64,000 nt of DNA, from the NCBI RefSeq assembly GCF_029624125.1, contig NZ_JARSBN010000002.1:434001-498000 (forward strand), read 5' to 3'. Origin of the DNA: Winogradskyella marincola (GTDB lineage Bacteria; Bacteroidota; Bacteroidia; Flavobacteriales; Flavobacteriaceae). Positions within the stretch are counted from its first letter, which is position 1, and each line of letters opens with the position of its first letter. Of the stretch, positions 43,652-56,531 are shown piece after piece. The notes under the pieces are model-generated. The model was not told the origin of the DNA. It saw nothing but the letters and a program-made list of their open reading frames with translations, and did no database searches. The position numbers and the translations under genes are program-made.

Positions 43652-44398
43652 ATGAAAAAGAAATTAGAATCAGAATTAGTAAGTATTGCACATAGGATTC
43701 TAAAATTAAAAGGCAGAGAAGATGTGGATAGAATGCATGCCGAAGTTGCCAACCTGTACGAGAAACTTACAGTTTTAAAATTTGCGCATGAGAATTTTGA
43801 AGACGATATGCCTACAATTGGCAATGATTCTTCATTTTTTGGAATGCTAGATACTGCGTTTAACAATAAAGTTAGCGATAATATAGAAGTAGGAAATAAG
43901 ACTTACGTTAATGTCGATGAGATTGAAGATGATGGTATAATGGAGCCTGTGATGGAAAAAATTAAGGACATGGTAGCTCAAATGCCAGACGAAAGTCAGC
44001 AGGTAGATGCTATCGTTGAAGAAGTTGTTGCTAATGAAAAACCAAGTGCTATAGAGTTTGAAACCATAACTTCTGATTTTGCTGATATTCCAGAGTTTGA
44101 ACCTATTGAAGAGGCTAAAAAACGTGAAGCCGAGCAAGCCAAAAAATCGTTGAACGATAAGTTAAAAGGCAACGGACTGCAAATAGGTCTAAATGATAAA
44201 TTAGCTTTTATAAAACATCTTTTTGAAGGAAAAAACGAAGATTATGATCGTGTTATCTCTCAAATAAACACTGCAGATTCTATTGCAGAAGCCAGAACAC
44301 TTATTTACGAAATGGTAAAACCAGACTACAATAATTGGCTAGGTAAGGAAGATTACGAAGAGCGTTTTATTGAAATCGTTGAAGGCAAGTTTAATTAA
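43652..44398 (+). CDS. Conserved Flavobacteriaceae protein of unknown function
   Basis: A 248-residue acidic, soluble protein with no signal peptide. I chose the ATG at 43652 (MKKKLESELVSIAHRILKLK); an upstream GTG at 43619 is less likely. The N-terminal third is helical and predicts a short coiled coil (about 1-50). The centre is rich in Asp and Glu (VDEIEDDGIMEPVMEKI, FADIPEFEPIEEAKKREAEQ). The C-terminal part is compact (LNDKLAFIKHLFEGKNEDYD, NWLGKEDYEERFIEIVEGKF). I recognise the type from flavobacterial genomes, where it stays uncharacterised. It is divergent from tdk. Its stop codon overlaps that of the opposing 44395 gene by 4 bp. Confidence 0.75.
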   Translation: MKKKLESELVSIAHRILKLKGREDVDRMHAEVANLYEKLTVLKFAHENFEDDMPTIGNDSSFFGMLDTAFNNKVSDNIEVGNKTYVNVDEIEDDGIMEPVMEKIKDMVAQMPDESQQVDAIVEEVVANEKPSAIEFETITSDFADIPEFEPIEEAKKREAEQAKKSLNDKLKGNGLQIGLNDKLAFIKHLFEGKNEDYDRVISQINTADSIAEARTLIYEMVKPDYNNWLGKEDYEERFIEIVEGKFN

Positions 44399-47300
44399 TA
44401 ATTTAAGTACACATAGCCTTGTAGTGGTTTTGCAATTCCTTTAATTTCTAAAATGTAGAAATAAGTTCCTACAGGTAATAGTCCAGAAAATTCTGGTATG
44501 CCTCTGTTTGCTCTACCATCCCAAGTATTATTATAATTATTAGTTTGGTAGATTAGTGTGCCATAACGGTTATAGATTTTAATAGTATTTTCAGGAAAAT
44601 TTTCGATACATGGAATAACCAAAAAGTCGTTTTCTAAATCTCCGTTAGGAGAGATCCCTTCTGGTATAGACAAGCAATTAGATATTTCTATAAGAGCATC
44701 ATCTTCATTGTTGGTGCTATTTCTATCCACTTCATTTAATGTATTTAGATAAGCAATATTCAACAAATCGGTAGAAGCAACGATTAACACTTCAACTTGA
44801 AGAGTTTCAGACTGGTTAGGTTCTAATACTGGAATTGACCATGATAGAGAACCGGAATCGAAAACACCAGAGCTTGTTGTTGCAGAAATAAAACTATATC
44901 CAGCAGGTAATGCATCTAAAACTTCAATAGCTGTTGCTTGAGTTGTACCTACATTTGTTGCGCTAATAGTAAAGGTTACTTCCTGGCCAACAATAGCTTC
45001 GGTTGGTTCAACAGATTTAAGAATTTCGATATCTACATTAGAAGTGTCTACAATAACATTTAATGTAGCGCTTACTTGCGAGGCATCTAAATTATTGGTG
45101 TCACTTATGTTTTGAGAGTCATTAAGATAGGTGCCAGCAACATCTGAGGTTACCATTACAGAAAATGTGCAGCTTTCTACACCAATAGGGAAAGTTAGAT
45201 CTGTAATTCCAACAAAAGTGTCTCCTGCAATACCATTAAAGGTAGCAGTACAGCCATTGGCATCTATCCAAACAGGAGATGAGGTTAAAGTGACTCCTGC
45301 AGGTAAATTATCAGTAAACGCAATACCATTTTGAGTAGGGCTAGACGCTATGTTGTAAACTGTAAAAATCAACTCACTTTCATCGCCTTCATAAATTGTA
45401 TCTGGAAAAAAGATCTTATCTAGTATTGGCGAAACCACCTGAACACTATTAACCGAAATGTTAGTTTCTGGAGTTAGCTCTTCGTTATCCGAAGCACTAG
45501 GAAAAGCTTCTGCAATATTATTAAAACCGCCACCAAAACTAGGTGCAGTCACAGGAATGGTAACTCTAATAGTTGAGCCTGCCTCCATAGTTGGTATGGT
45601 ACCAGTTATTGTGTTTCCGGAAATATTAAAAGTAGAAATACAAGCCGCATTACCAGAGGTTATATTACAAGTAGGAGTACCCATAATGGTAAAGGCATTG
45701 TCTAAAACATTTTCAAACTGTATATCTATAGCATCAGAACTGGTTGTGCTATTACTTATGTCTACAATCCAGTTAAAAGATTGGTCTGTTTCTACTTGAG
45801 AGTATTCTGGATAAGTTTGTACAATGAGATCTATACAAGGTGCAAAATAAGTATTTACAAAAGCAACATTGTTAACTCCGTTAGTTTCAGAATTGTTATT
45901 TACATAATCTGCTCTTACGTAATTTGTTCCTATCATAGGTTGGGTAGAACATTCGGGTTGCCAACTTACGGTAACGGTAAAAGAAACAGAACTATGTGCA
46001 GGAAGAATCCAGTTGTCTTCGGGTAAAATTTCCCAGAAGGTATCAAAACTTCCATCTTCAGTTACTCCATCAAAAGTAACTCCAATATTAGCATTGTTTA
46101 TAGGGAAACAAGATGCTGTTCCTGTGGTTCCTGAGCACTCTACACTAACTAAAGTTCCTGTAATTGGTGCATCGGCAGCAGATGGAACAGGCATATGATC
46201 TTGTACTTGTATAGCTTCGTCTGTATTACCATCATTTGTTACTGTTATTTCATAAGTAATTTCTCCCCATTCTGTTGTGTTTGTTTGAGAACTTCCGGTT
46301 GGCAATTCAGGAAATATTTGAGTCTTAGTAACCTTTAAGTCCGAAGTATTGTCAATATCACAAGGTTCTTCATACGGAAGATCAAACTCATTGTAATGAT
46401 AATTATTATCAATATTTATATCTATAGTTTGACTTGGTAATAGAGAAACCTGACTTTTTATAAGAGCCTCTCCTACGGTTGGAAATACGCTACAAGGTGG
46501 CTCAAGAAACACAACAACGGTTTCAATAGTTATGGTTGTGTTGGGTTGAAGCGTAAATTCGCTACTCAACCATAGCTGACCATTGTCCGAAATGGAAAAA
46601 TCATCACAAGTTACAGGTCCTGTTGTTGCTAAACAATTTATAGAAACAATGCTCCAGTTAACATTTGGTGATAGGTCTTGCATAAAGAAAAATAATTCTG
46701 TTTCAGAAGGTCCGTTGTTGCAAACGGTTGTTTCAAAAGTAACCTCTTCATTATATTCAATATTCGTAGTATCTGTTGGGTCTACTATTTCGGTCGAAAT
46801 ACATACATCTGTTACAGGGCACTGTTCTGCATCAAGTAAAATGGTTTCTTCAAGATTTGAAAGGTTTGAAGACACATTATCATGGCTTAATCCTATTTCA
46901 ATAAAACTATCAACTGAAATTGGCATAGGGTTTGGCGAGCAAGAAAAATTGGTATAGCGATATACCATTTCAAAAGAGATGCTTCCGCCAGAGGTGATTT
47001 CATGCGTCTCATTAAAAACAAAAATTGATGTTGCCGAATTAATATTTTCAGAAGATACTGTATTTGGATATGTATTAATAGTACTTAGGTCTGGACAGAG
47101 GGTTCCGTTGGTTGCGCCTAAACATTCTATAGAAACAAATTCAGCAAAAGGTTGTCCGTTATCGTAGAGTGAGGACAAAATGAGATTGCCTTCAATAAAC
47201 TCTACAGGAAAATCTATGTCACTATTGTTTGTTATGGTAAACTGATAGGTAACCTCATCTCCCCAAGCATTTATAGGTGTACCTAATGCAGGTGAAATTT

Positions 47301-47808
47301 GAGAATGTGTAACCACAAAATCAATAATAATATCCAGAACATCTATAGAAATTATTGACTGATTATTATTGGTATTGGTATCTGTAGTGCCTGTAGGTGC
47401 ACTTATAGTAGCATTAACAGCAATACCACCAATATTTGTTGGCGCTGTAACTAAAACCAGTAGCTCTACACTTGAGTTATTAGGCATATTATCTACAACA
47501 GCAGTTAAAACATTAGAAGTGATACCAACATTAGAAACATTAGATGCACCATTGATGTTGTTCTGAGAATTTGTAGAAATTATTGTAATATCATTATCAA
47601 AATTTACAGAAATAGTTGCATTATTTACAGTGTTTCCAGAGTTGGATAACGTAATTAAATACTGAAAATCTTCATTAATATCTATCTGAGAAATTGCAGT
47701 TCCGCTAAGATTTTGTGCCTCGACGTTTATGGATAAGTCTGTAGTTTGACTGTGTGCGTATGAACATAATAGAAATAAAACAAATAAGCGACATAGCTTT
47801 ACAATCAT
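44395..47808 (-). CDS. Giant DUF11-repeat protein with T9SS type B (gliding-type) C-terminal domain
   Basis: A 1137-residue secreted surface protein with a signal peptide ending in SYAHS. The bulk is a series of beta-sandwich DUF11-type repeats recognised by lines such as VTNDGNTDEAIQVQDHMP, NLPAGVTLTSSPVWIDANG and SATNVGTTQATAIEVLDALP. The C-terminus (SIPEGISPNGDLENDFLV, IYNRYGTLIYQTNNYNNTWDG, LPVGTYFYILEI) is the gliding motility-associated or type B sorting domain. This domain directs export through the T9SS and is often linked to SprB-like adhesins. It has no catalytic motif and may be an adhesin or surface-layer-like filament. Its stop overlaps that of the gene at 43652. Confidence 0.9.
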   Translation of the reverse strand: MIVKLCRLFVLFLLCSYAHSQTTDLSINVEAQNLSGTAISQIDINEDFQYLITLSNSGNTVNNATISVNFDNDITIISTNSQNNINGASNVSNVGITSNVLTAVVDNMPNNSSVELLVLVTAPTNIGGIAVNATISAPTGTTDTNTNNNQSIISIDVLDIIIDFVVTHSQISPALGTPINAWGDEVTYQFTITNNSDIDFPVEFIEGNLILSSLYDNGQPFAEFVSIECLGATNGTLCPDLSTINTYPNTVSSENINSATSIFVFNETHEITSGGSISFEMVYRYTNFSCSPNPMPISVDSFIEIGLSHDNVSSNLSNLEETILLDAEQCPVTDVCISTEIVDPTDTTNIEYNEEVTFETTVCNNGPSETELFFFMQDLSPNVNWSIVSINCLATTGPVTCDDFSISDNGQLWLSSEFTLQPNTTITIETVVVFLEPPCSVFPTVGEALIKSQVSLLPSQTIDINIDNNYHYNEFDLPYEEPCDIDNTSDLKVTKTQIFPELPTGSSQTNTTEWGEITYEITVTNDGNTDEAIQVQDHMPVPSAADAPITGTLVSVECSGTTGTASCFPINNANIGVTFDGVTEDGSFDTFWEILPEDNWILPAHSSVSFTVTVSWQPECSTQPMIGTNYVRADYVNNNSETNGVNNVAFVNTYFAPCIDLIVQTYPEYSQVETDQSFNWIVDISNSTTSSDAIDIQFENVLDNAFTIMGTPTCNITSGNAACISTFNISGNTITGTIPTMEAGSTIRVTIPVTAPSFGGGFNNIAEAFPSASDNEELTPETNISVNSVQVVSPILDKIFFPDTIYEGDESELIFTVYNIASSPTQNGIAFTDNLPAGVTLTSSPVWIDANGCTATFNGIAGDTFVGITDLTFPIGVESCTFSVMVTSDVAGTYLNDSQNISDTNNLDASQVSATLNVIVDTSNVDIEILKSVEPTEAIVGQEVTFTISATNVGTTQATAIEVLDALPAGYSFISATTSSGVFDSGSLSWSIPVLEPNQSETLQVEVLIVASTDLLNIAYLNTLNEVDRNSTNNEDDALIEISNCLSIPEGISPNGDLENDFLVIPCIENFPENTIKIYNRYGTLIYQTNNYNNTWDGRANRGIPEFSGLLPVGTYFYILEIKGIAKPLQGYVYLNY

Positions 47809-49122: not shown

Positions 49123-52100
49123 CTAATCTTTAATCTCAACTGTATTTCCTGAGATCCAAGTTTTGTTTTCATCTCCATAATACAGGTAAGCAGTACTTGC
49201 TGGTGCTTGGTAATGGCCAGCAATATCAGCTTTTAAGTCTAGCCTAATATTTTTGGTTTCTGAGGCTTTAAATTCTCGCCAGTAAAACACCAGATAGTTA
49301 TCAAAAATCTCATAAAAAGCCACCTTATTTTCTTCTAAAATCTTTTTTAATTGCCAAGGTTGAGCCGTTGTTCCAGATGGTATGCCAACAATTGTGGTGA
49401 CCATGCCTAAGGGTTTTGCATTGGTGTTTGCAACAGAGATATTAAAACTTACATTATCACCAACCGCATGGTTTTGTCCAGTAATTGTTGTTTCGAGTTG
49501 TAATGGACAAGCATTTGAACTATCTGGTAACGTGCTATCCCAATTCACATTTAAGGTATAAGGAAATGTTGTCTTTGGGTTATTAAACTTAACTGCAATG
49601 GTCTGTTTTCCTTGTTTTAGATAGTTCTCAAAACCGTTAATGGTAATTTTTCCATCGTCTGAAAGCTCTAATTTTTTAGTTATCGATTTACCATTAATTA
49701 TTAAGGTGATATCATCGTTTTCCTTAAGTATTTTTTGCTTTTGACCTTTTGTGTAATTAATCAGTGCTTTAAGAGCCATTGCAGTTGCTTGAGTAGAGCC
49801 AAAACGGTTGTATTTACGTTGCTTAATCAGATAATCTATACCTTCTGTTATAAGTATTGTGTTTTGGTTTTTCTCGTCCATTAAAGCCAATGTTGTAAGC
49901 GCTACGGTTTCTATCTGTTTAGAGTTGCCGTAAGATCTGGTAATTGTATTTTCAACAGGTATTTTATCAAAACCATACTCCTCAATATTTGCTTTTATTT
50001 TGGTTAAAAGTGTTTTAAAGTTTTCTTCTTTATTGAGGTTATGACTAGCCATGGCTAGTAATGCCATTTTATAAGTGTCATTACTTTTTATGGCATCTGC
50101 ATAGCCTGTATTATATTCTAGCATATAATCTGCATTGACACCAGATTCGCTTAATGCATAGACAATGTAAGCATTGGCAACATCTGTTGGTGAACTGGCA
50201 AAGCTATCATAGCCTTTTTTACTTTTTTTGAAACCACCTTTACCGTCTTTTCGGCTTAAAAGCCAATCTACAGTTCTGAAAATCATTTTGTCACTTACAC
50301 CATCGTATACTTCTTTCATTTCGGTAAATTCCAAAATGCCATAAGCGGTTAAGGTTTCGTGTGGAGGCGTATGACCAAACCATTCAAAACCACCTTCAGA
50401 AGTTTCAAAACCAATAAGCCTTTTATAGCCTTGTTTTATAAAATCTAGAGCTTTAGCTTCAATTTCAGGATTGCTTTTGCCTGCTTCCTTCAGGTATTTT
50501 AAAACCATAATATTAGGATATGTTGAAGATGATGTTTGCTCAAAACATCCATAAGGCTGACGGATTAAAGACTCAATACCATCCATAACATCACCTACAA
50601 TGTCTGTATAAATATTAAACTCTGTTGTAATACTATTTTTAACAGCATGGTTAATTTCAAAGTCAAATGTTTGAGTTTCTGAACCAGACAATGATATTGA
50701 TGTTGGGAAATAAGGGCTTAAAATGGTTACCTTTTTCTTTATGATATCCTTATAGTCTTCAGATTCTGCCAAAATAGAAATGTCTAAGTCTTTACCCTTT
50801 TCAATAGGTATAACTTTTATGGTTTTGGTCACAGCGTTTTTAGCTTCCACGTTTAGTTTTTCATCAATAGACGATACCAGCTTTAAATGTTCAGGCAAAA
50901 GAAACTTTAAATTGGTTTCCATGGCTTTCTCAGTTTCATTTGTAATGGTAATTGGTAATGAAATGGTGTCATTTAGCACCATGTAATTAGGTGTTTTAAT
51001 GTCAATGTTCAATAACTTTTTGGTAGCATATAATTTATCTGCTTTACCTACAAGACCATTATAACCAATGCCTTCAGCAGAAATTTTAAACGACGTTACA
51101 GCATCAGAATTATAAAATTCAATTTCGGCAATGCCATCAGCATTGGTTTGTACTACTGGATTCCAGTATATGGTTTGTCTAAAATCGGTACGCTCTTCTA
51201 GTAGATTTTTTCCTTCATAGATTGGCATGTAGAAACTTCTTGGAGTGTCTATGTGGTTTCCAATATAGTGGTAAAATTGCTTTACAGCATAGTTTTTATA
51301 ATCTCGGTTATTTAATCGTTTTGTGGCTCCTTTATAATAAGGATAGCTATCGTTTTTGGTGGTAATGATAATAACTCCGTTAGAGCCTCTGCTACCATAA
51401 ATGCTGGTTGCAGCAGCATCTTTTAGGACTGTTACGCTGTTTACTTGTTGAGGGTTGATGTCGCTCAAAGCAGACCTATCGTAAGGTACACCATCTACTA
51501 CAACAAGAGGTTCGTTATTACCAGACACACTGCCAAAGCCTCTGATTCTAACGTTTGGAGCACTACCGGGTTGTCCGTTAGCATTTGTTACGTTAACACT
51601 AGCCACTTCGCCAGCCAAAGCATTGATAACAGAATTGCCGTTTGATGCTATTTCTTCTTGTGAAATCACTTTTACAGAACCCGTAAGGCTCGCTTTACGT
51701 GTTGTACTATAACCCACAACGATAACTTCATCCAAACCATTTCCACTTTCTTGTAAGCCAACAGATATTTTTGCCTTTTGTTTAATAGTGTTTTGTAGTG
51801 GTTTTTCATTTTTGTCAAAAGACTTAATATTCTCTTTGTTTTCTACATTTTTAGTTGGTGTTTGGCTGTAGTATCTTCCTTCTTCTAAGGATGTTTCTTC
51901 AATAGTAACACGTTCTCCATTGTCTTTGTAAGCCAATAAAGTAAGATTGTAATTATTGTTGAATTTAAAAGCGAAAGAGCCATCTTCTTCGGTGTCAAAA
52001 ACCAAAACTTTATTACCATCTCTATCAAAAAGCAGCAAATGTGCTTGTGTTGGTTTTCCTTTTTTGTTGAGCACAACACCTGTTTGTATAGCACTCTGTT

Positions 52101-53697
52101 CTGGTAGATATTGTGCATTTTCCTTAGTAACGGTAGTTGCATTGATATAGTCTCTCCAACCATGAGTTAGCATCACATAATCTATTGCTGTTTTTGATTT
52201 TGGCTCTTTTGGATTCAAGTAAAAATCTGGCTTATGAATTTTACCTTTCAATTCAGAAGATACCAATAAGTAGGATAAAATATGGTCTTGCTTGTCGTCA
52301 GCAAAGGACAGTAATTTATTATCCGCAACGGCCAATGATAAGTTTGCAGGAATAGGATTCTGCTTTTCATCGTATGTTTTTATAGTGAGTTTTACTTTTT
52401 CTCTGGTATTGTACACTTCCTTATCTAGGCTGAGGTCTACATGAAGTTTTTTGTGAGGATTTAGAAACACCAAACGCTCTGCGAATGTACTACCATATTC
52501 ATTTTTTAGACTGAATTTGGTAATACCCATAGGATATTCTGAAGTGCTTAAGCTTAGATTTTTTTTGAGACCAATTTCCTTTTTTAGGAGTAATGTACTT
52601 GCATTAGAAACCTCAAGAAATAAAGGTGTGCTATAAGTTGAAAAAATATCTAAATTGGTTGATAGACTATCTGTTGTAACAGAAAACCGAACACCATTTT
52701 CGTACACTTTTGGTAGCTGAATTAATTCCTCAGAACGAAAAGGTTCTGTAATCTTAGCATGGTAAACCTCGTCTTTAATTGGGTTAAAATTGAAGCTTCC
52801 CATGCCATCATGAAAACTTTCAAAGTTTGAAACGGTTTCTCCTTTCGCATTTACAACATCTCCTTTGAGATCTACAGGTTTTCCAAATTCATTAAGAGCT
52901 TTAAAAGCAACTTTGTTTAAAGTGCCAACTACAATTTTGCCACTTTCTGGTAAAAACTGAAGATCAATAGTGTTTAAAACCACAGGAACAGCTCTTGAGA
53001 TAGATTCTGTGGTGCCTTTATGATATACCAAAGCGTTTAAAACAATATCAACGGACTCCAAGTCTTCTGGTAATGTAAAGCTGGGTTTGGCTTTACCGTC
53101 TTTGTCTGTAACCACAACATCATTTATAATGTCGGTGCCTTTTATGCTCACTTTATACGTAACTTCTGTGTGTGATAAAGGTTGATTTTTTAAATCCTTA
53201 ACCTCAAGATTTGCGATAACCTCAGAGGATTTTCCGTAGCCTTCTTTTTCAAATTTTAGATTAAGTAACAGCTTAGGTTTTACCACTTTTTGAATAGTGA
53301 TTTTTTTGGTAAAAAATGAATCTTCACCATAATTACGCATCCAATTGGTGTAGCATTTTAAAGTGTAAATGCCACCAACCCAATCAGAGCTAATATCAAA
53401 ATTTCCGTAAGCATATCCTTGTTTTACATTAAGATTTAAGGATGTTACAACAGCACCTTTAGGCGAAATTAATTCCGCATGCATCACGTCACTGATGGTC
53501 GTAATAGTATTGTCTGTACCTACGATGTAAGATTTAAACCAAATGGTTTCTCCAGGAAAATAGAACGGTCTGTCCGTTTGAGTGTATATCTTCTCTAATG
53601 GATTATTAAATGCTTCAAAAGCTTTATAAGACAGCAACGTGAAGAAGCAAAGTCCGGCAATTACCAAAAGTTTAGTGTTTTGTATAAGTTTTTTCAT
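49123..53697 (-). CDS. Alpha-2-macroglobulin-like protein with inserted TonB plug domain
   Basis: A 1524-residue exported protein. An N-terminal hydrophobic segment (about 9-28) is a signal or anchor without a clear lipobox. MG-type Ig-like domains (LEKIYTQTDRPFYFPGETIW, MG2-type) fill about residues 30-540. A regulatory-like domain follows near 540-610. Residues 656-783 are a SusC-type TonB box and plug: DEVIVVGYSTTRKASLTGSV, NVRIRGFGSVSG, EPLVVVDGVPYD, VLKDAAATSIYGSRGSNG and GVIIITTK. Then comes the A2M core (TIYWNPVVQTNADG) and an intact thioester motif Y-G-C-F-E-Q with Cys1051 and Gln1054. A thioester helical domain and a C-terminal receptor-like domain end it. There is no barrel of its own. 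It starts 5 bp after a SusC-like gene that lacks a plug. Probably a surface or periplasmic trap that docks in that barrel. Confidence 0.88.
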   Translation of the reverse strand: MKKLIQNTKLLVIAGLCFFTLLSYKAFEAFNNPLEKIYTQTDRPFYFPGETIWFKSYIVGTDNTITTISDVMHAELISPKGAVVTSLNLNVKQGYAYGNFDISSDWVGGIYTLKCYTNWMRNYGEDSFFTKKITIQKVVKPKLLLNLKFEKEGYGKSSEVIANLEVKDLKNQPLSHTEVTYKVSIKGTDIINDVVVTDKDGKAKPSFTLPEDLESVDIVLNALVYHKGTTESISRAVPVVLNTIDLQFLPESGKIVVGTLNKVAFKALNEFGKPVDLKGDVVNAKGETVSNFESFHDGMGSFNFNPIKDEVYHAKITEPFRSEELIQLPKVYENGVRFSVTTDSLSTNLDIFSTYSTPLFLEVSNASTLLLKKEIGLKKNLSLSTSEYPMGITKFSLKNEYGSTFAERLVFLNPHKKLHVDLSLDKEVYNTREKVKLTIKTYDEKQNPIPANLSLAVADNKLLSFADDKQDHILSYLLVSSELKGKIHKPDFYLNPKEPKSKTAIDYVMLTHGWRDYINATTVTKENAQYLPEQSAIQTGVVLNKKGKPTQAHLLLFDRDGNKVLVFDTEEDGSFAFKFNNNYNLTLLAYKDNGERVTIEETSLEEGRYYSQTPTKNVENKENIKSFDKNEKPLQNTIKQKAKISVGLQESGNGLDEVIVVGYSTTRKASLTGSVKVISQEEIASNGNSVINALAGEVASVNVTNANGQPGSAPNVRIRGFGSVSGNNEPLVVVDGVPYDRSALSDINPQQVNSVTVLKDAAATSIYGSRGSNGVIIITTKNDSYPYYKGATKRLNNRDYKNYAVKQFYHYIGNHIDTPRSFYMPIYEGKNLLEERTDFRQTIYWNPVVQTNADGIAEIEFYNSDAVTSFKISAEGIGYNGLVGKADKLYATKKLLNIDIKTPNYMVLNDTISLPITITNETEKAMETNLKFLLPEHLKLVSSIDEKLNVEAKNAVTKTIKVIPIEKGKDLDISILAESEDYKDIIKKKVTILSPYFPTSISLSGSETQTFDFEINHAVKNSITTEFNIYTDIVGDVMDGIESLIRQPYGCFEQTSSSTYPNIMVLKYLKEAGKSNPEIEAKALDFIKQGYKRLIGFETSEGGFEWFGHTPPHETLTAYGILEFTEMKEVYDGVSDKMIFRTVDWLLSRKDGKGGFKKSKKGYDSFASSPTDVANAYIVYALSESGVNADYMLEYNTGYADAIKSNDTYKMALLAMASHNLNKEENFKTLLTKIKANIEEYGFDKIPVENTITRSYGNSKQIETVALTTLALMDEKNQNTILITEGIDYLIKQRKYNRFGSTQATAMALKALINYTKGQKQKILKENDDITLIINGKSITKKLELSDDGKITINGFENYLKQGKQTIAVKFNNPKTTFPYTLNVNWDSTLPDSSNACPLQLETTITGQNHAVGDNVSFNISVANTNAKPLGMVTTIVGIPSGTTAQPWQLKKILEENKVAFYEIFDNYLVFYWREFKASETKNIRLDLKADIAGHYQAPASTAYLYYGDENKTWISGNTVEIKD

Positions 53698-53702
53698 AGT
53701 AT

Positions 53703-56531
53703 TTATATTTTTAAGTTGACTTTTAGCCCAACTTCACTAATTAAAGGAGTATTGAAAAAGTTAAGATTATGCCCAGAATTGGTATCAAAAAGTGATGAAT
53801 AAGGAGATGCTCCTCTGTATTTTGTAAATGTGATGAGGTTATGAGCGTAAAGCCCTATTTCAACTTGCCTGAAAAAATCATAATTACTTTTAGCAAAATC
53901 ATAAGAAAGCTCAATGGTTCTTAAGTTAAGATAACCAGCATCTTCAATGGCTTCTTCTGCAACACCACTGAAGCCGTAGCGTACAAAGCGGTTATTTTCA
54001 ATACCATCTTCAGGATTATAAAAATCTACAGGAATTGTGTTTGTATTGCCTTGAGCGTTTACACCATTAAAAACATAATTTGTAATGTTTCTTTGATCTG
54101 CTGACTGTTGTGATGAGCCAAAATAGTTGAGCACATTTTGAGTGCCATTCCAAGTGTCTCCTCCTTTTTGGTAATCTAACGCGAAATGAAATTTTAATTT
54201 CTTCCAGGTAAAACGATTAGAAAAACCAAGTGTAAAATCTGGTACAGGATTACCAATAATTTGTTGTTCTGTATCTATAATTGGATAGCCATTGCTGTCT
54301 ATAATAATGTTGTTTTGAGTGTCTCTTGCAAAGGCCGTTCCTACAATAACACCAGCAGGTTGGCCAACGATTAAATTTTTAGACACATTTTGAAAACCTG
54401 CAATTGGTACACGCTCTTCATTATTGTATAGTTTGGTAACCTTGTTTTTGTTGGTCATAAAACTTAGACTACTATTCCAACGCACAGAGCTGAACATTTC
54501 AGAAACATCCAATTGTAGCTCTAAACCTTTATTGGTAATATCTGCAATATTTTGAAGTTGAAATTGATTGCCTTCTAAAACTGGGAATACGCTTCCTTTT
54601 GTTTTTGAACCAAAATAACTTGCAGTAAAATCCCAATAAGCATCCCATAAATAGAAATCTAAATCGAGATTAAAAGAATAATCGTGACGTTCTTCTAAAT
54701 CTAAGTCTTCGTTTATAAATAAGTCAATGTTACTGGTGTAACCAAGACTTTCTGAAGGTAATAATTGCAGACTGTTGTGACTTTGATTGTTGTAAAAAAG
54801 AGGCATTTCATTAACATCAAAAGCGCTTGTTGCACTCAAGGTAAAATAGCTAATATCGTCTAGTTTTAAAATATCTGCTAAGTCAACTTTTAGTACAGAA
54901 GAAGGTAAAAGCAATTTGTTCTTTTGAATGGAAGAGATATACGCAGTATTACTAAATACAATTTTAGAGTATCTTTTATATTTTAGAGTAACAGATTGGT
55001 GTGGTCTTAGCACATTTCTATTAATGCGATTAGAGATTTCAGTGGTGCTATTTGGATTTGAAAATGTAAAGGCATCAAAACCTTCAGATTCTTTGAATGT
55101 ATAATCTAATTGCTCATTTTTAAACCTAGTAATGGAACGTACATCTATGGAAAAATCTCCCAAGTATTTGTCATAGTGTAAGTCTAGCATAGCATTGAAG
55201 CTATTGTTTTTTATGGTTTTGTTGCTTAGATAGCCGTTTTCAAAACCTACAGTATTGGTAAACAAACCAAAGTTTTGCTCGTTTTCTGCTGTTTTATAGC
55301 TTAGTTGGCTTCCTATTGAAAAGTCGTCACCAATATTTATGTCATTTTTTAGGTTGGCTACAAATAAGGTGTTGGCATCATAGTTTTTATTGTTAAACAA
55401 CCATTCAGGATTGTTATAATTGGTTGGGCTAAAACTACGTTGTGTATTGTCTGGTAAAACACTGCCTTGACCATTGTTAAAAGACACAGGTGTTACCCAT
55501 GAATTTAGAAGTAGATTGTTTCTAAATCCATTAATGTTAGGTTGGTTGTTTTTCCAGTGACTGTATTTAATAAAGGATTTCCAACTTAGTTCTTCACTGT
55601 TACGATTAAGGGTTTTAAAGTTTAGTGCGAGATCGTTATTTATTTTTTGTGCTCTACCAAAAATGTCTTCAGTATTTTTCTGACTAAAGTCAAGTCCTGT
55701 GGTCCATTCATCTGTATCAATATCAAAATACACATTGGTAAACCTACTAATGGCAGTATTTAACACGCTATTGTTGTATTGCTTAGAGCTAACACCATTT
55801 CCATTGCCTAGCGTAACCAGTCTGCCGTTGTTGTCGTATATATAATTACTTCCATCAAACTCCAAAGTATTTAGGTTTGGTCCATAAGAAAAGACGTTTC
55901 CTGTTTCTGGTCCTAAAAAAGCAATAGATCCATTTTCGGTGGCTCCTTGGCTGTAGGAAGATTGTAACTTTGGTAAGTTACTTTCCTTAACAAACTGAAA
56001 ACTTAAGTTAGATTTTACTCCAATTTGAAAATATATATCTGGATTAAAATAGGTTAGGATTACATGTTCTGGGTCAAGGTGAATGTCTTTAATTCTATGC
56101 AAAGCGTTATAGTAGCCTTTTTTATTGTAGAGATGTTTTGAATCTGCTATGGAAGGTATTTTAAAACGTTCCTTTTTTTTATTTTTTAAAGCTTCACTAT
56201 AAGCATCAGTTTCAATAGGTTTTACTTTTACTCGCTTAACCGCTGTTTTTTGGACGGTTCCAAACATATCAGCTGTCACTGTAATTTCCTTTGGATCCAT
56301 ACCAACATAGCTAATAACTATAACATCACCTACATTGCATTTTATACTGTAATTACCATCAAAATCGGTTTGATCTCCGTGGGTCGTTCCTTTAACGATT
56401 ATAGTGGCTCCAGGCAAAGGCAAGCCGTCTGATGAAGTGGTGAGTGTTCCTGTTACCGTTCCTTCTTGAGAGAAACAGAGTACTGGGAATACTATGAGCA
56501 ATACGAATATTTTGAATGTAATTTTATTCAT
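53703..56531 (-). CDS. SusC-like outer membrane barrel lacking a plug domain
   Basis: A 942-residue protein with a signal peptide (MNKITFKIFVLLIVFPVLCFSQ) and a carboxypeptidase-regulatory-like domain at about 23-100 (DGLPLPGATIIVKGTTHGDQ). SusC proteins then have a TonB box and a plug of about 120 residues. Here a lysine-rich linker (KNKKKERFKIPSIADSK) leads straight to barrel-like strands (SFQFVKESNLPKLQSSYSQG). I find none of the plug motifs (RIRG, VxDG, VLKDA, NGVIxITTK). The barrel and its C-terminus are SusC-like (DITNKGLELQLDVS, IELSYDF, YAHNLITFTKYRGASPYSS). The A2M-like gene 5 bp downstream carries exactly such a plug. No SusD gene is nearby. Transported substrate unknown. Confidence 0.85.
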   Translation of the reverse strand: MNKITFKIFVLLIVFPVLCFSQEGTVTGTLTTSSDGLPLPGATIIVKGTTHGDQTDFDGNYSIKCNVGDVIVISYVGMDPKEITVTADMFGTVQKTAVKRVKVKPIETDAYSEALKNKKKERFKIPSIADSKHLYNKKGYYNALHRIKDIHLDPEHVILTYFNPDIYFQIGVKSNLSFQFVKESNLPKLQSSYSQGATENGSIAFLGPETGNVFSYGPNLNTLEFDGSNYIYDNNGRLVTLGNGNGVSSKQYNNSVLNTAISRFTNVYFDIDTDEWTTGLDFSQKNTEDIFGRAQKINNDLALNFKTLNRNSEELSWKSFIKYSHWKNNQPNINGFRNNLLLNSWVTPVSFNNGQGSVLPDNTQRSFSPTNYNNPEWLFNNKNYDANTLFVANLKNDINIGDDFSIGSQLSYKTAENEQNFGLFTNTVGFENGYLSNKTIKNNSFNAMLDLHYDKYLGDFSIDVRSITRFKNEQLDYTFKESEGFDAFTFSNPNSTTEISNRINRNVLRPHQSVTLKYKRYSKIVFSNTAYISSIQKNKLLLPSSVLKVDLADILKLDDISYFTLSATSAFDVNEMPLFYNNQSHNSLQLLPSESLGYTSNIDLFINEDLDLEERHDYSFNLDLDFYLWDAYWDFTASYFGSKTKGSVFPVLEGNQFQLQNIADITNKGLELQLDVSEMFSSVRWNSSLSFMTNKNKVTKLYNNEERVPIAGFQNVSKNLIVGQPAGVIVGTAFARDTQNNIIIDSNGYPIIDTEQQIIGNPVPDFTLGFSNRFTWKKLKFHFALDYQKGGDTWNGTQNVLNYFGSSQQSADQRNITNYVFNGVNAQGNTNTIPVDFYNPEDGIENNRFVRYGFSGVAEEAIEDAGYLNLRTIELSYDFAKSNYDFFRQVEIGLYAHNLITFTKYRGASPYSSLFDTNSGHNLNFFNTPLISEVGLKVNLKI

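Follow-up and report, generated by a model that had tools for sequence, protein, structure and literature searches.

In TonB-dependent receptors, the plug has its two ends on the periplasmic side. In the SusC-type transporter Bt1763, deletion of the TonB box VDEVVV or its replacement by alanine leads to growth defects on levan, and a SusC plug is able to exit its barrel in vitro (both from the accessible part of PMC7782687). A plug can also be supplied as a separate chain, since an FpvAI barrel deprived of its plug is complemented by the FpvAI plug made as a separate protein (accessible part of PMC10994204). Among thioester proteins, cleavage of the bait region triggers the conformational change of alpha-2-macroglobulin (A2M), and inner-membrane anchoring is reported for bacterial A2Ms (accessible part of PMC4498604). 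In the literature covered, which takes in few subscription papers and preprints and extends to A2M or MG2 with plug, SusC or TonB, to plugless receptors and to plug-bearing anti-sigma proteins, we found no account of the pair reported here.

This pair lies on the minus strand of the window, by which we mean the whole 64,000-nucleotide stretch of DNA analysed. It consists of a SusC barrel gene without a plug (53703-56531) and, 5 bp downstream, a gene whose product, a thioester A2M, includes a TonB box and an entire SusC plug (49123-53697). In our view the pair probably makes up a single split TonB-dependent receptor, in which a periplasmic thioester A2M plugs the barrel in trans. The features of the pair are as follows.

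53703..56531, minus strand: plugless SusC-type barrel gene, 942 aa (open reading frame, Pfam, NCBIfam, plug HMM, PDB profile match, structure model).
56268..56456, minus strand: NTE (CarbopepD_reg_2), barrel-protein residues 26-88 (Pfam).
53706..56042, minus strand: barrel proper, residues 164-942 (model and structural alignment; matches 5FQ8_D 170-984, which is all that follows the plug).
49123..53697, minus strand: thioester A2M bearing the plug, 1524 aa, starting 5 bp past the barrel stop (open reading frame, Pfam).
53344..53592, minus strand: MG2 domain, A2M residues 36-118 (Pfam).
51874..52083, minus strand: CarboxypepD_reg-like domain, A2M residues 539-608 (weak match, Pfam E 0.024, under cut-off).
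51349..51741, minus strand: SusC-type plug, A2M residues 653-783, aligned to the bait-region position (Pfam, NCBIfam, plug HMM, PDB profile).
51718..51735, minus strand: TonB box LDEVIV, A2M residues 655-660 (pattern, alignment).
50905..51174, minus strand: PF00207 A2M domain, residues 842-931 (Pfam).
49753..50613, minus strand: thioester domain (TED), A2M residues 1029-1315 (Pfam).
50536..50547, minus strand: thioester motif C-F-E-Q, A2M residues 1051-1054 (motif).

Searches of the PADLOC models against the barrel and A2M proteins returned 0 families at E <= 0.01. Elsewhere in the window, positions 44395-47808 encode a protein of 1137 aa that has DUF11 repeats and, at its C-terminus, a CHU_C type IX secretion signal.

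The N-terminus of the 942-aa protein is hydrophobic and is followed by the NTE and then by the barrel. Pfam recognizes only carboxypeptidase-regulatory (NTE) matches in this protein, and TIGR04056 matches three SusC stretches (E 3.6e-54) without reaching its whole-protein cut-off, which a partial SusC would be expected to miss. An earlier note on this DNA had described a barrel without a SusC plug beside an A2M-like protein, 5 bp downstream, that carries TonB box and plug, and had named the discovery of a hidden plug by profile search as what would speak against this description. A plug HMM built from seven same-genome SusCs matching the A2M plug, and run unfiltered in maximum-sensitivity mode, gave 78-177 bits on 39/39 A2Ms and at best 4.4 bits on any of 39 barrels (0/39 score), and Pfam Plug was absent from the five barrels scanned. 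The barrel protein thus hides no plug, and the description holds for both partners, the A2M plug being recognized by Pfam, NCBIfam and the plug HMM and its TonB box being LDEVIV at residues 655-660.

The two proteins are complementary in their alignment to known SusC structures. A profile of 12 barrels matches 5FQ6_B over residues 175-984, and residues 3-172 of that chain are matched by a profile built from 16 A2Ms; as aligned, barrel and A2M plug together tile one complete SusC chain. An AF2 model of the barrel, which is of moderate confidence (12-row alignment input, mean pLDDT 63.8, pTM 0.59, 335 residues under pLDDT 50), shows 22 long strands in a by-eye count of its DSSP assignment. Its region from residue 163-169 up to the C-terminal residue 942 aligns with SusC 170-984, with BtuB 134-594 and with FhuA barrels, at Z 16.5-22.8 among the best 50 matches. 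A link of the barrel to the Bacteroidota BAM complex was considered, but none was found in the BAM paper covered; BamG is FadL-like.

The A2M is a complete thioester protein by motif, with GCFEQ present in 22/22 representatives, and Pfam finds MG2, PF00207 and TED domains in the 1524-aa protein. Foldseek searches with a model of an A2M fragment retrieve A2ML1, CD109, C5 and ECAM, the E. coli A2M, at E 1e-28 to 1e-36 and TM ~0.2; the domain arrangement of this model is uncertain, and its plug region (pLDDT ~20-35) is unusable as a plug structure. Pfam Plug covers residues 668-775 (1.2e-19), the NCBIfam SusC signature falls on residues 752-781 over its cut-off, and a loose pattern locates a TonB box in 38/39 A2Ms. 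Linkers of ~46 residues (608 to 655) and ~58 residues (783 to 842) flank the plug.

In C3 and C5, the anaphylatoxin is located before the PF00207 region. PDB profile matches show that the A2M part restarts at profile position 839-854, which corresponds to residue 763 of the C3 chain and residues 937-954 of the ECAM chain. The disordered bait segment of ECAM is Arg923-Leu942 (accessible part of PMC4498604), a comparison in which PDB chain and paper numbering may be slightly offset. Because the restart lies near this segment, the plug, as judged by alignment, occupies the bait/anaphylatoxin position of the A2M/C3 fold. A lipobox pattern within the first 40 residues was found in 0/39 A2Ms, the starts being uncertain in two of them (L113 and L122). 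With no lipobox in any of the 39 by this pattern, the A2M may rely on its plug in place of the lipid anchor used by E. coli A2M, and tethering of the A2M at the outer membrane is plausible.

Conservation of the arrangement was followed through 39 loci. The genus supplied 12 of them, the remaining genera of its family another 13, a second family of the same order (f5, probably Weeksellaceae) 13 more, and a MAG the last one. A plugless barrel lies directly upstream of the A2M on the same strand in 39/39 loci, at a spacing of 2-5 bp in 37/39; the genes overlap in the other two, where the mechanically chosen start codon is perhaps too far upstream. Across the two families, identity to the window proteins drops to ~33% for the A2M and ~27% for the barrel. 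The earlier note had called the partners complementary and had asked for a survey of co-occurrence. The A2M occurs in 12/68 genomes of the genus and a ~950-aa barrel occurs in the same 12; within the family sample, taking the best 2 candidates per genome, the A2M occurs in 15/397 genomes and the barrel in the same 15. A sixteenth family genome (G146) has a fragmented barrel, with one of its contigs carrying the barrel end followed immediately by the A2M start through the plug. No orphan plugless barrels were found in the genus (best up to 12 candidates per genome) or in the family sample (best 2 per genome), and the other 25 barrel-search matches at E<=1e-50 lie in frames of 1045-1172 aa, of which 13/25 were opened and all 13 contain a plug. 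With no hidden plug and with co-occurrence in other genomes, the partnership of barrel gene and A2M gene is well supported; both checks set by the earlier note came out in its favour, and the interpretation given there is supported in part.

One genome of the same phylum (G851) encodes an A2M of this subfamily (E 9e-168) that lacks a plug and has two carboxypeptidase-regulatory stretches. No barrel adjoins this plugless A2M, and the best match of the barrel profile in the genome is a 1019-aa frame at 8e-19. An A2M that lacks both plug and barrel partner fits a split receptor, although it is a weak control, being the only such genome found (1/98 in its order). Eight MG-plug proteins from other Bacteroidota (L077-L083) carry plugs that are all partial, and no barrel match was found near them, the flanking DNA being short for L081-L083. 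Near two of the MG-plug genes, in a Mucilaginibacter MAG (L078:14119-15988), lie a 189-aa putative sigma-factor-like open reading frame and a protein of 435 aa that matches the plug weakly (24 bits), with no barrel match in the flanking DNA. In one genome (L047:4623-5093), the barrel is closely preceded by a 156-aa protein that has a signal-peptide-like start and two repeats of the C-terminal half of the plug.

In an unrooted barrel tree, 22 plugless barrels and 20 SusCs that bear a plug lie on opposite sides of a branch with support 1.0; the plugless barrels form one clade under midpoint rooting, and their monophyly depends on the root. In the plug tree, 21/22 A2M plugs fall outside the SusC group (support 0.956), and the plug of L096 falls weakly inside. 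The simplest reading of these trees is that the pair had a single origin. The best own-genome SusC for both NTE and plug is L150, and the nearest complete relatives of the barrel are another SusC group; hence plug and barrel, to judge from these matches, need not descend from one ancestral receptor.

Of five comparisons of the plug, one is saturated and the other four give dN/dS of 0.13-0.25, indicating at the codon level that the plug is under purifying selection. Both genes are full-length open reading frames under purifying selection in the pairs compared. The plug evolves faster than its host A2M: between L039 and L042, its dS (A2M residues 653-783) is 1.06, versus 0.22-0.46 in other A2M regions, and dS of the barrel linker 106-165 is also raised (1.02). 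Together with the grouping of L096, this faster evolution makes plug exchange with SusC genes possible and suggests that the fit of the plug to this one barrel may be loose. A mirror tree of 33 pairs, leaving out one truncated pair and five near relatives of others (6 of 39), gave a plug-barrel partial correlation of 0.245, below those of MG2-3 (0.397) and MG4 (0.264).

In the split receptor that we propose, the 942-aa protein would form the outer-membrane barrel, and the adjoining periplasmic A2M would supply the plug, which would stand in for its bait region. From the complementary sequences, docking of the A2M plug in the lumen of the neighbouring barrel is likely, as is TonB dependence of the pair, whose TonB box LDEVIV corresponds to VDEVVV of Bt1763. 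Since plug ends are periplasmic, a plug placed as a loop within the A2M fits an A2M body suspended below the pore; the A2M would cork the pore and would thereby be held at the outer membrane with its body hanging beneath. Either a TonB pull on the TonB box or a protease cut in the plug would then cause the plug to leave the barrel. Given its place at the bait site, plug departure should also trip the A2M, and because bait cleavage triggers the A2M change, loss of the plug could expose the thioester beside the opened pore, where it would capture incoming material. Such coupling of plug movement to thioester exposure is speculative, and we hold it to be rather doubtful; the trap function of the A2M is likewise putative.

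The sister family f5 adds a second candidate plug. In 13/13 of its loci (L111-L123, L204-L208), BLAST shows the barrel preceded by genes for an ECF sigma factor and an anti-sigma-like protein, and the latter protein bears its own plug (34-101 bits, 13/13). This protein has a VWA region in 7/13 loci (BLAST), a TonB box in 7/13 (pattern) and a transmembrane segment as read by eye; Pfam confirms the sigma domains in 3 loci and VWA/YfbK in 2. One barrel with two candidate plugs suggests plug exchange and signalling. The earlier note mentioned neither this second plug-bearing protein nor the bait position of the A2M plug. We tentatively envisage a pore-coupled thioester trap, in which pore opening by TonB, ligand or protease would arm a covalent trap beneath, and in which the inner-membrane anti-sigma-like protein of f5 would be a competing plug whose exchange reports the state of the pore to the ECF sigma factor. 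One genome outside f5 has, divergently upstream of the pair (L096:10429-11565), an ECF sigma gene together with a 210-aa protein that matches nothing in Pfam.

An ordinary A2M paralog offers a contrast to the barrel-linked family. Among the matches listed, it occurs in 37/68 genomes of the genus with a frame of 2034-2197 aa, and we read its bait site in 21/37, namely the window genome's own copy (L158, G000:C23) and 20 chosen by hand (L209-L228), 17 of which come from genomes without a ~950-aa plugless barrel among the best up to 12 candidates per genome. Immediately ahead of PF00207, between well-conserved flanks, lies a hypervariable stretch of 83-254 aa whose pieces derive from SusC NTE, TonB box and plug. 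It holds a full plug in 1 of the 21, a partial plug in 4, a short fragment in 7 (the TonB-box end in six of these) and none in 9. As read from these sites, SusC N-terminal pieces have repeatedly entered A2M bait sites, or have decayed there. Plug (39/39) and TonB box (38/39) are complete in the barrel-linked family, whereas they are mostly decayed in the paralog. This difference is good support for selection on the plug being maintained by the barrel.

The paralog also bears on the strongest alternative, that the plug is a bait or an integrated decoy, such that proteases or toxins attacking SusC plugs would spring the trap while the plug never enters a barrel and the barrel works alone. The location of the plug at the bait position, the whole, partial and vestigial plug pieces at a site that varies as under arms-race evolution, and the raised plug dS in some comparisons would all be consistent with a decoy. 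We nevertheless consider this unlikely, as it leaves unexplained both why a plugless barrel stands directly upstream in every locus read and why the TonB box is retained in all A2Ms except one. More improbable is a barrel that would serve as an open or secretion pore exporting the A2M to the surface, with the plug as export signal or gate; there is a parallel in the TonB-dependent transporter Oar, which is needed for secretion of the PopC protease (accessible part of PMC6434023), but the topology of the plug fits a periplasmic A2M. Least credible is a decaying receptor, in which a SusC gene lost its plug and the A2M acquired a dead copy with no working complex resulting, as the patchy distribution (12/68 and, at the best 2 candidates per genome, 15/397) might suggest, for the intact reading frames, the purifying selection on both genes of the pairs compared and an arrangement that holds across two families at ~27-33% identity all stand against it.

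If the plug of the split receptor docks as predicted, the pair would be a natural TonB-dependent receptor divided over two proteins, with the plug joining pore and complement-like thioester protein. The pair would then provide a test of whether a TonB-dependent plug exits and re-enters its barrel whole and of what bacterial A2Ms trap. The occurrence of plugs in A2M, anti-sigma/VWA and MG proteins suggests that plugs serve as mobile docking modules in Bacteroidota.

Compared with SusC/RagA transporters (BT2264, 5FQ6-8; BT1763, 5T3R; RagA, 6SLI), the locus has NTE, TonB box, plug and barrel all present across two genes, the barrel model aligns over the whole length of the barrel, and the plug part of the A2M profile matches its two top SusC chains with 144 and 142 bits. 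Unlike these transporters, plug and TonB box are here on a separate polypeptide, and Pfam finds no SusD-like match among the four flanking window products; in 3/3 related canonical loci tested, a SusD-like gene directly follows susC, a place held here by the A2M gene. The A2M resembles bacterial type I A2Ms (E. coli ECAM/YfhM and Salmonella SaA2M) in its MG domains, PF00207 and TED with CxEQ, by both sequence and fold matches, and differs in the SusC plug aligned to its bait position and, from ECAM, which is named a lipoprotein in the PDB, in the missing lipobox. It shares a fold family with complement C3 and C5, including a folded domain inserted before the PF00207 region, but the inserted domain is a receptor plug rather than an anaphylatoxin and the host is bacterial. 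The ECF sigma and anti-sigma-like genes preceding the barrel in f5 recall FecIRA-type signalling, from which f5 departs in that the anti-sigma-like protein itself bears a plug and in about half of the loci a VWA region, and from which the window pair departs in having no adjoining ECF sigma or anti-sigma genes. A further parallel is the reconstitution of FpvAI, where a barrel without a plug regains function once the plug is given in trans (accessible part of PMC10994204); that system is a laboratory construct, whereas the arrangement proposed here would be natural, with the plug forming part of a 1524-aa protein.
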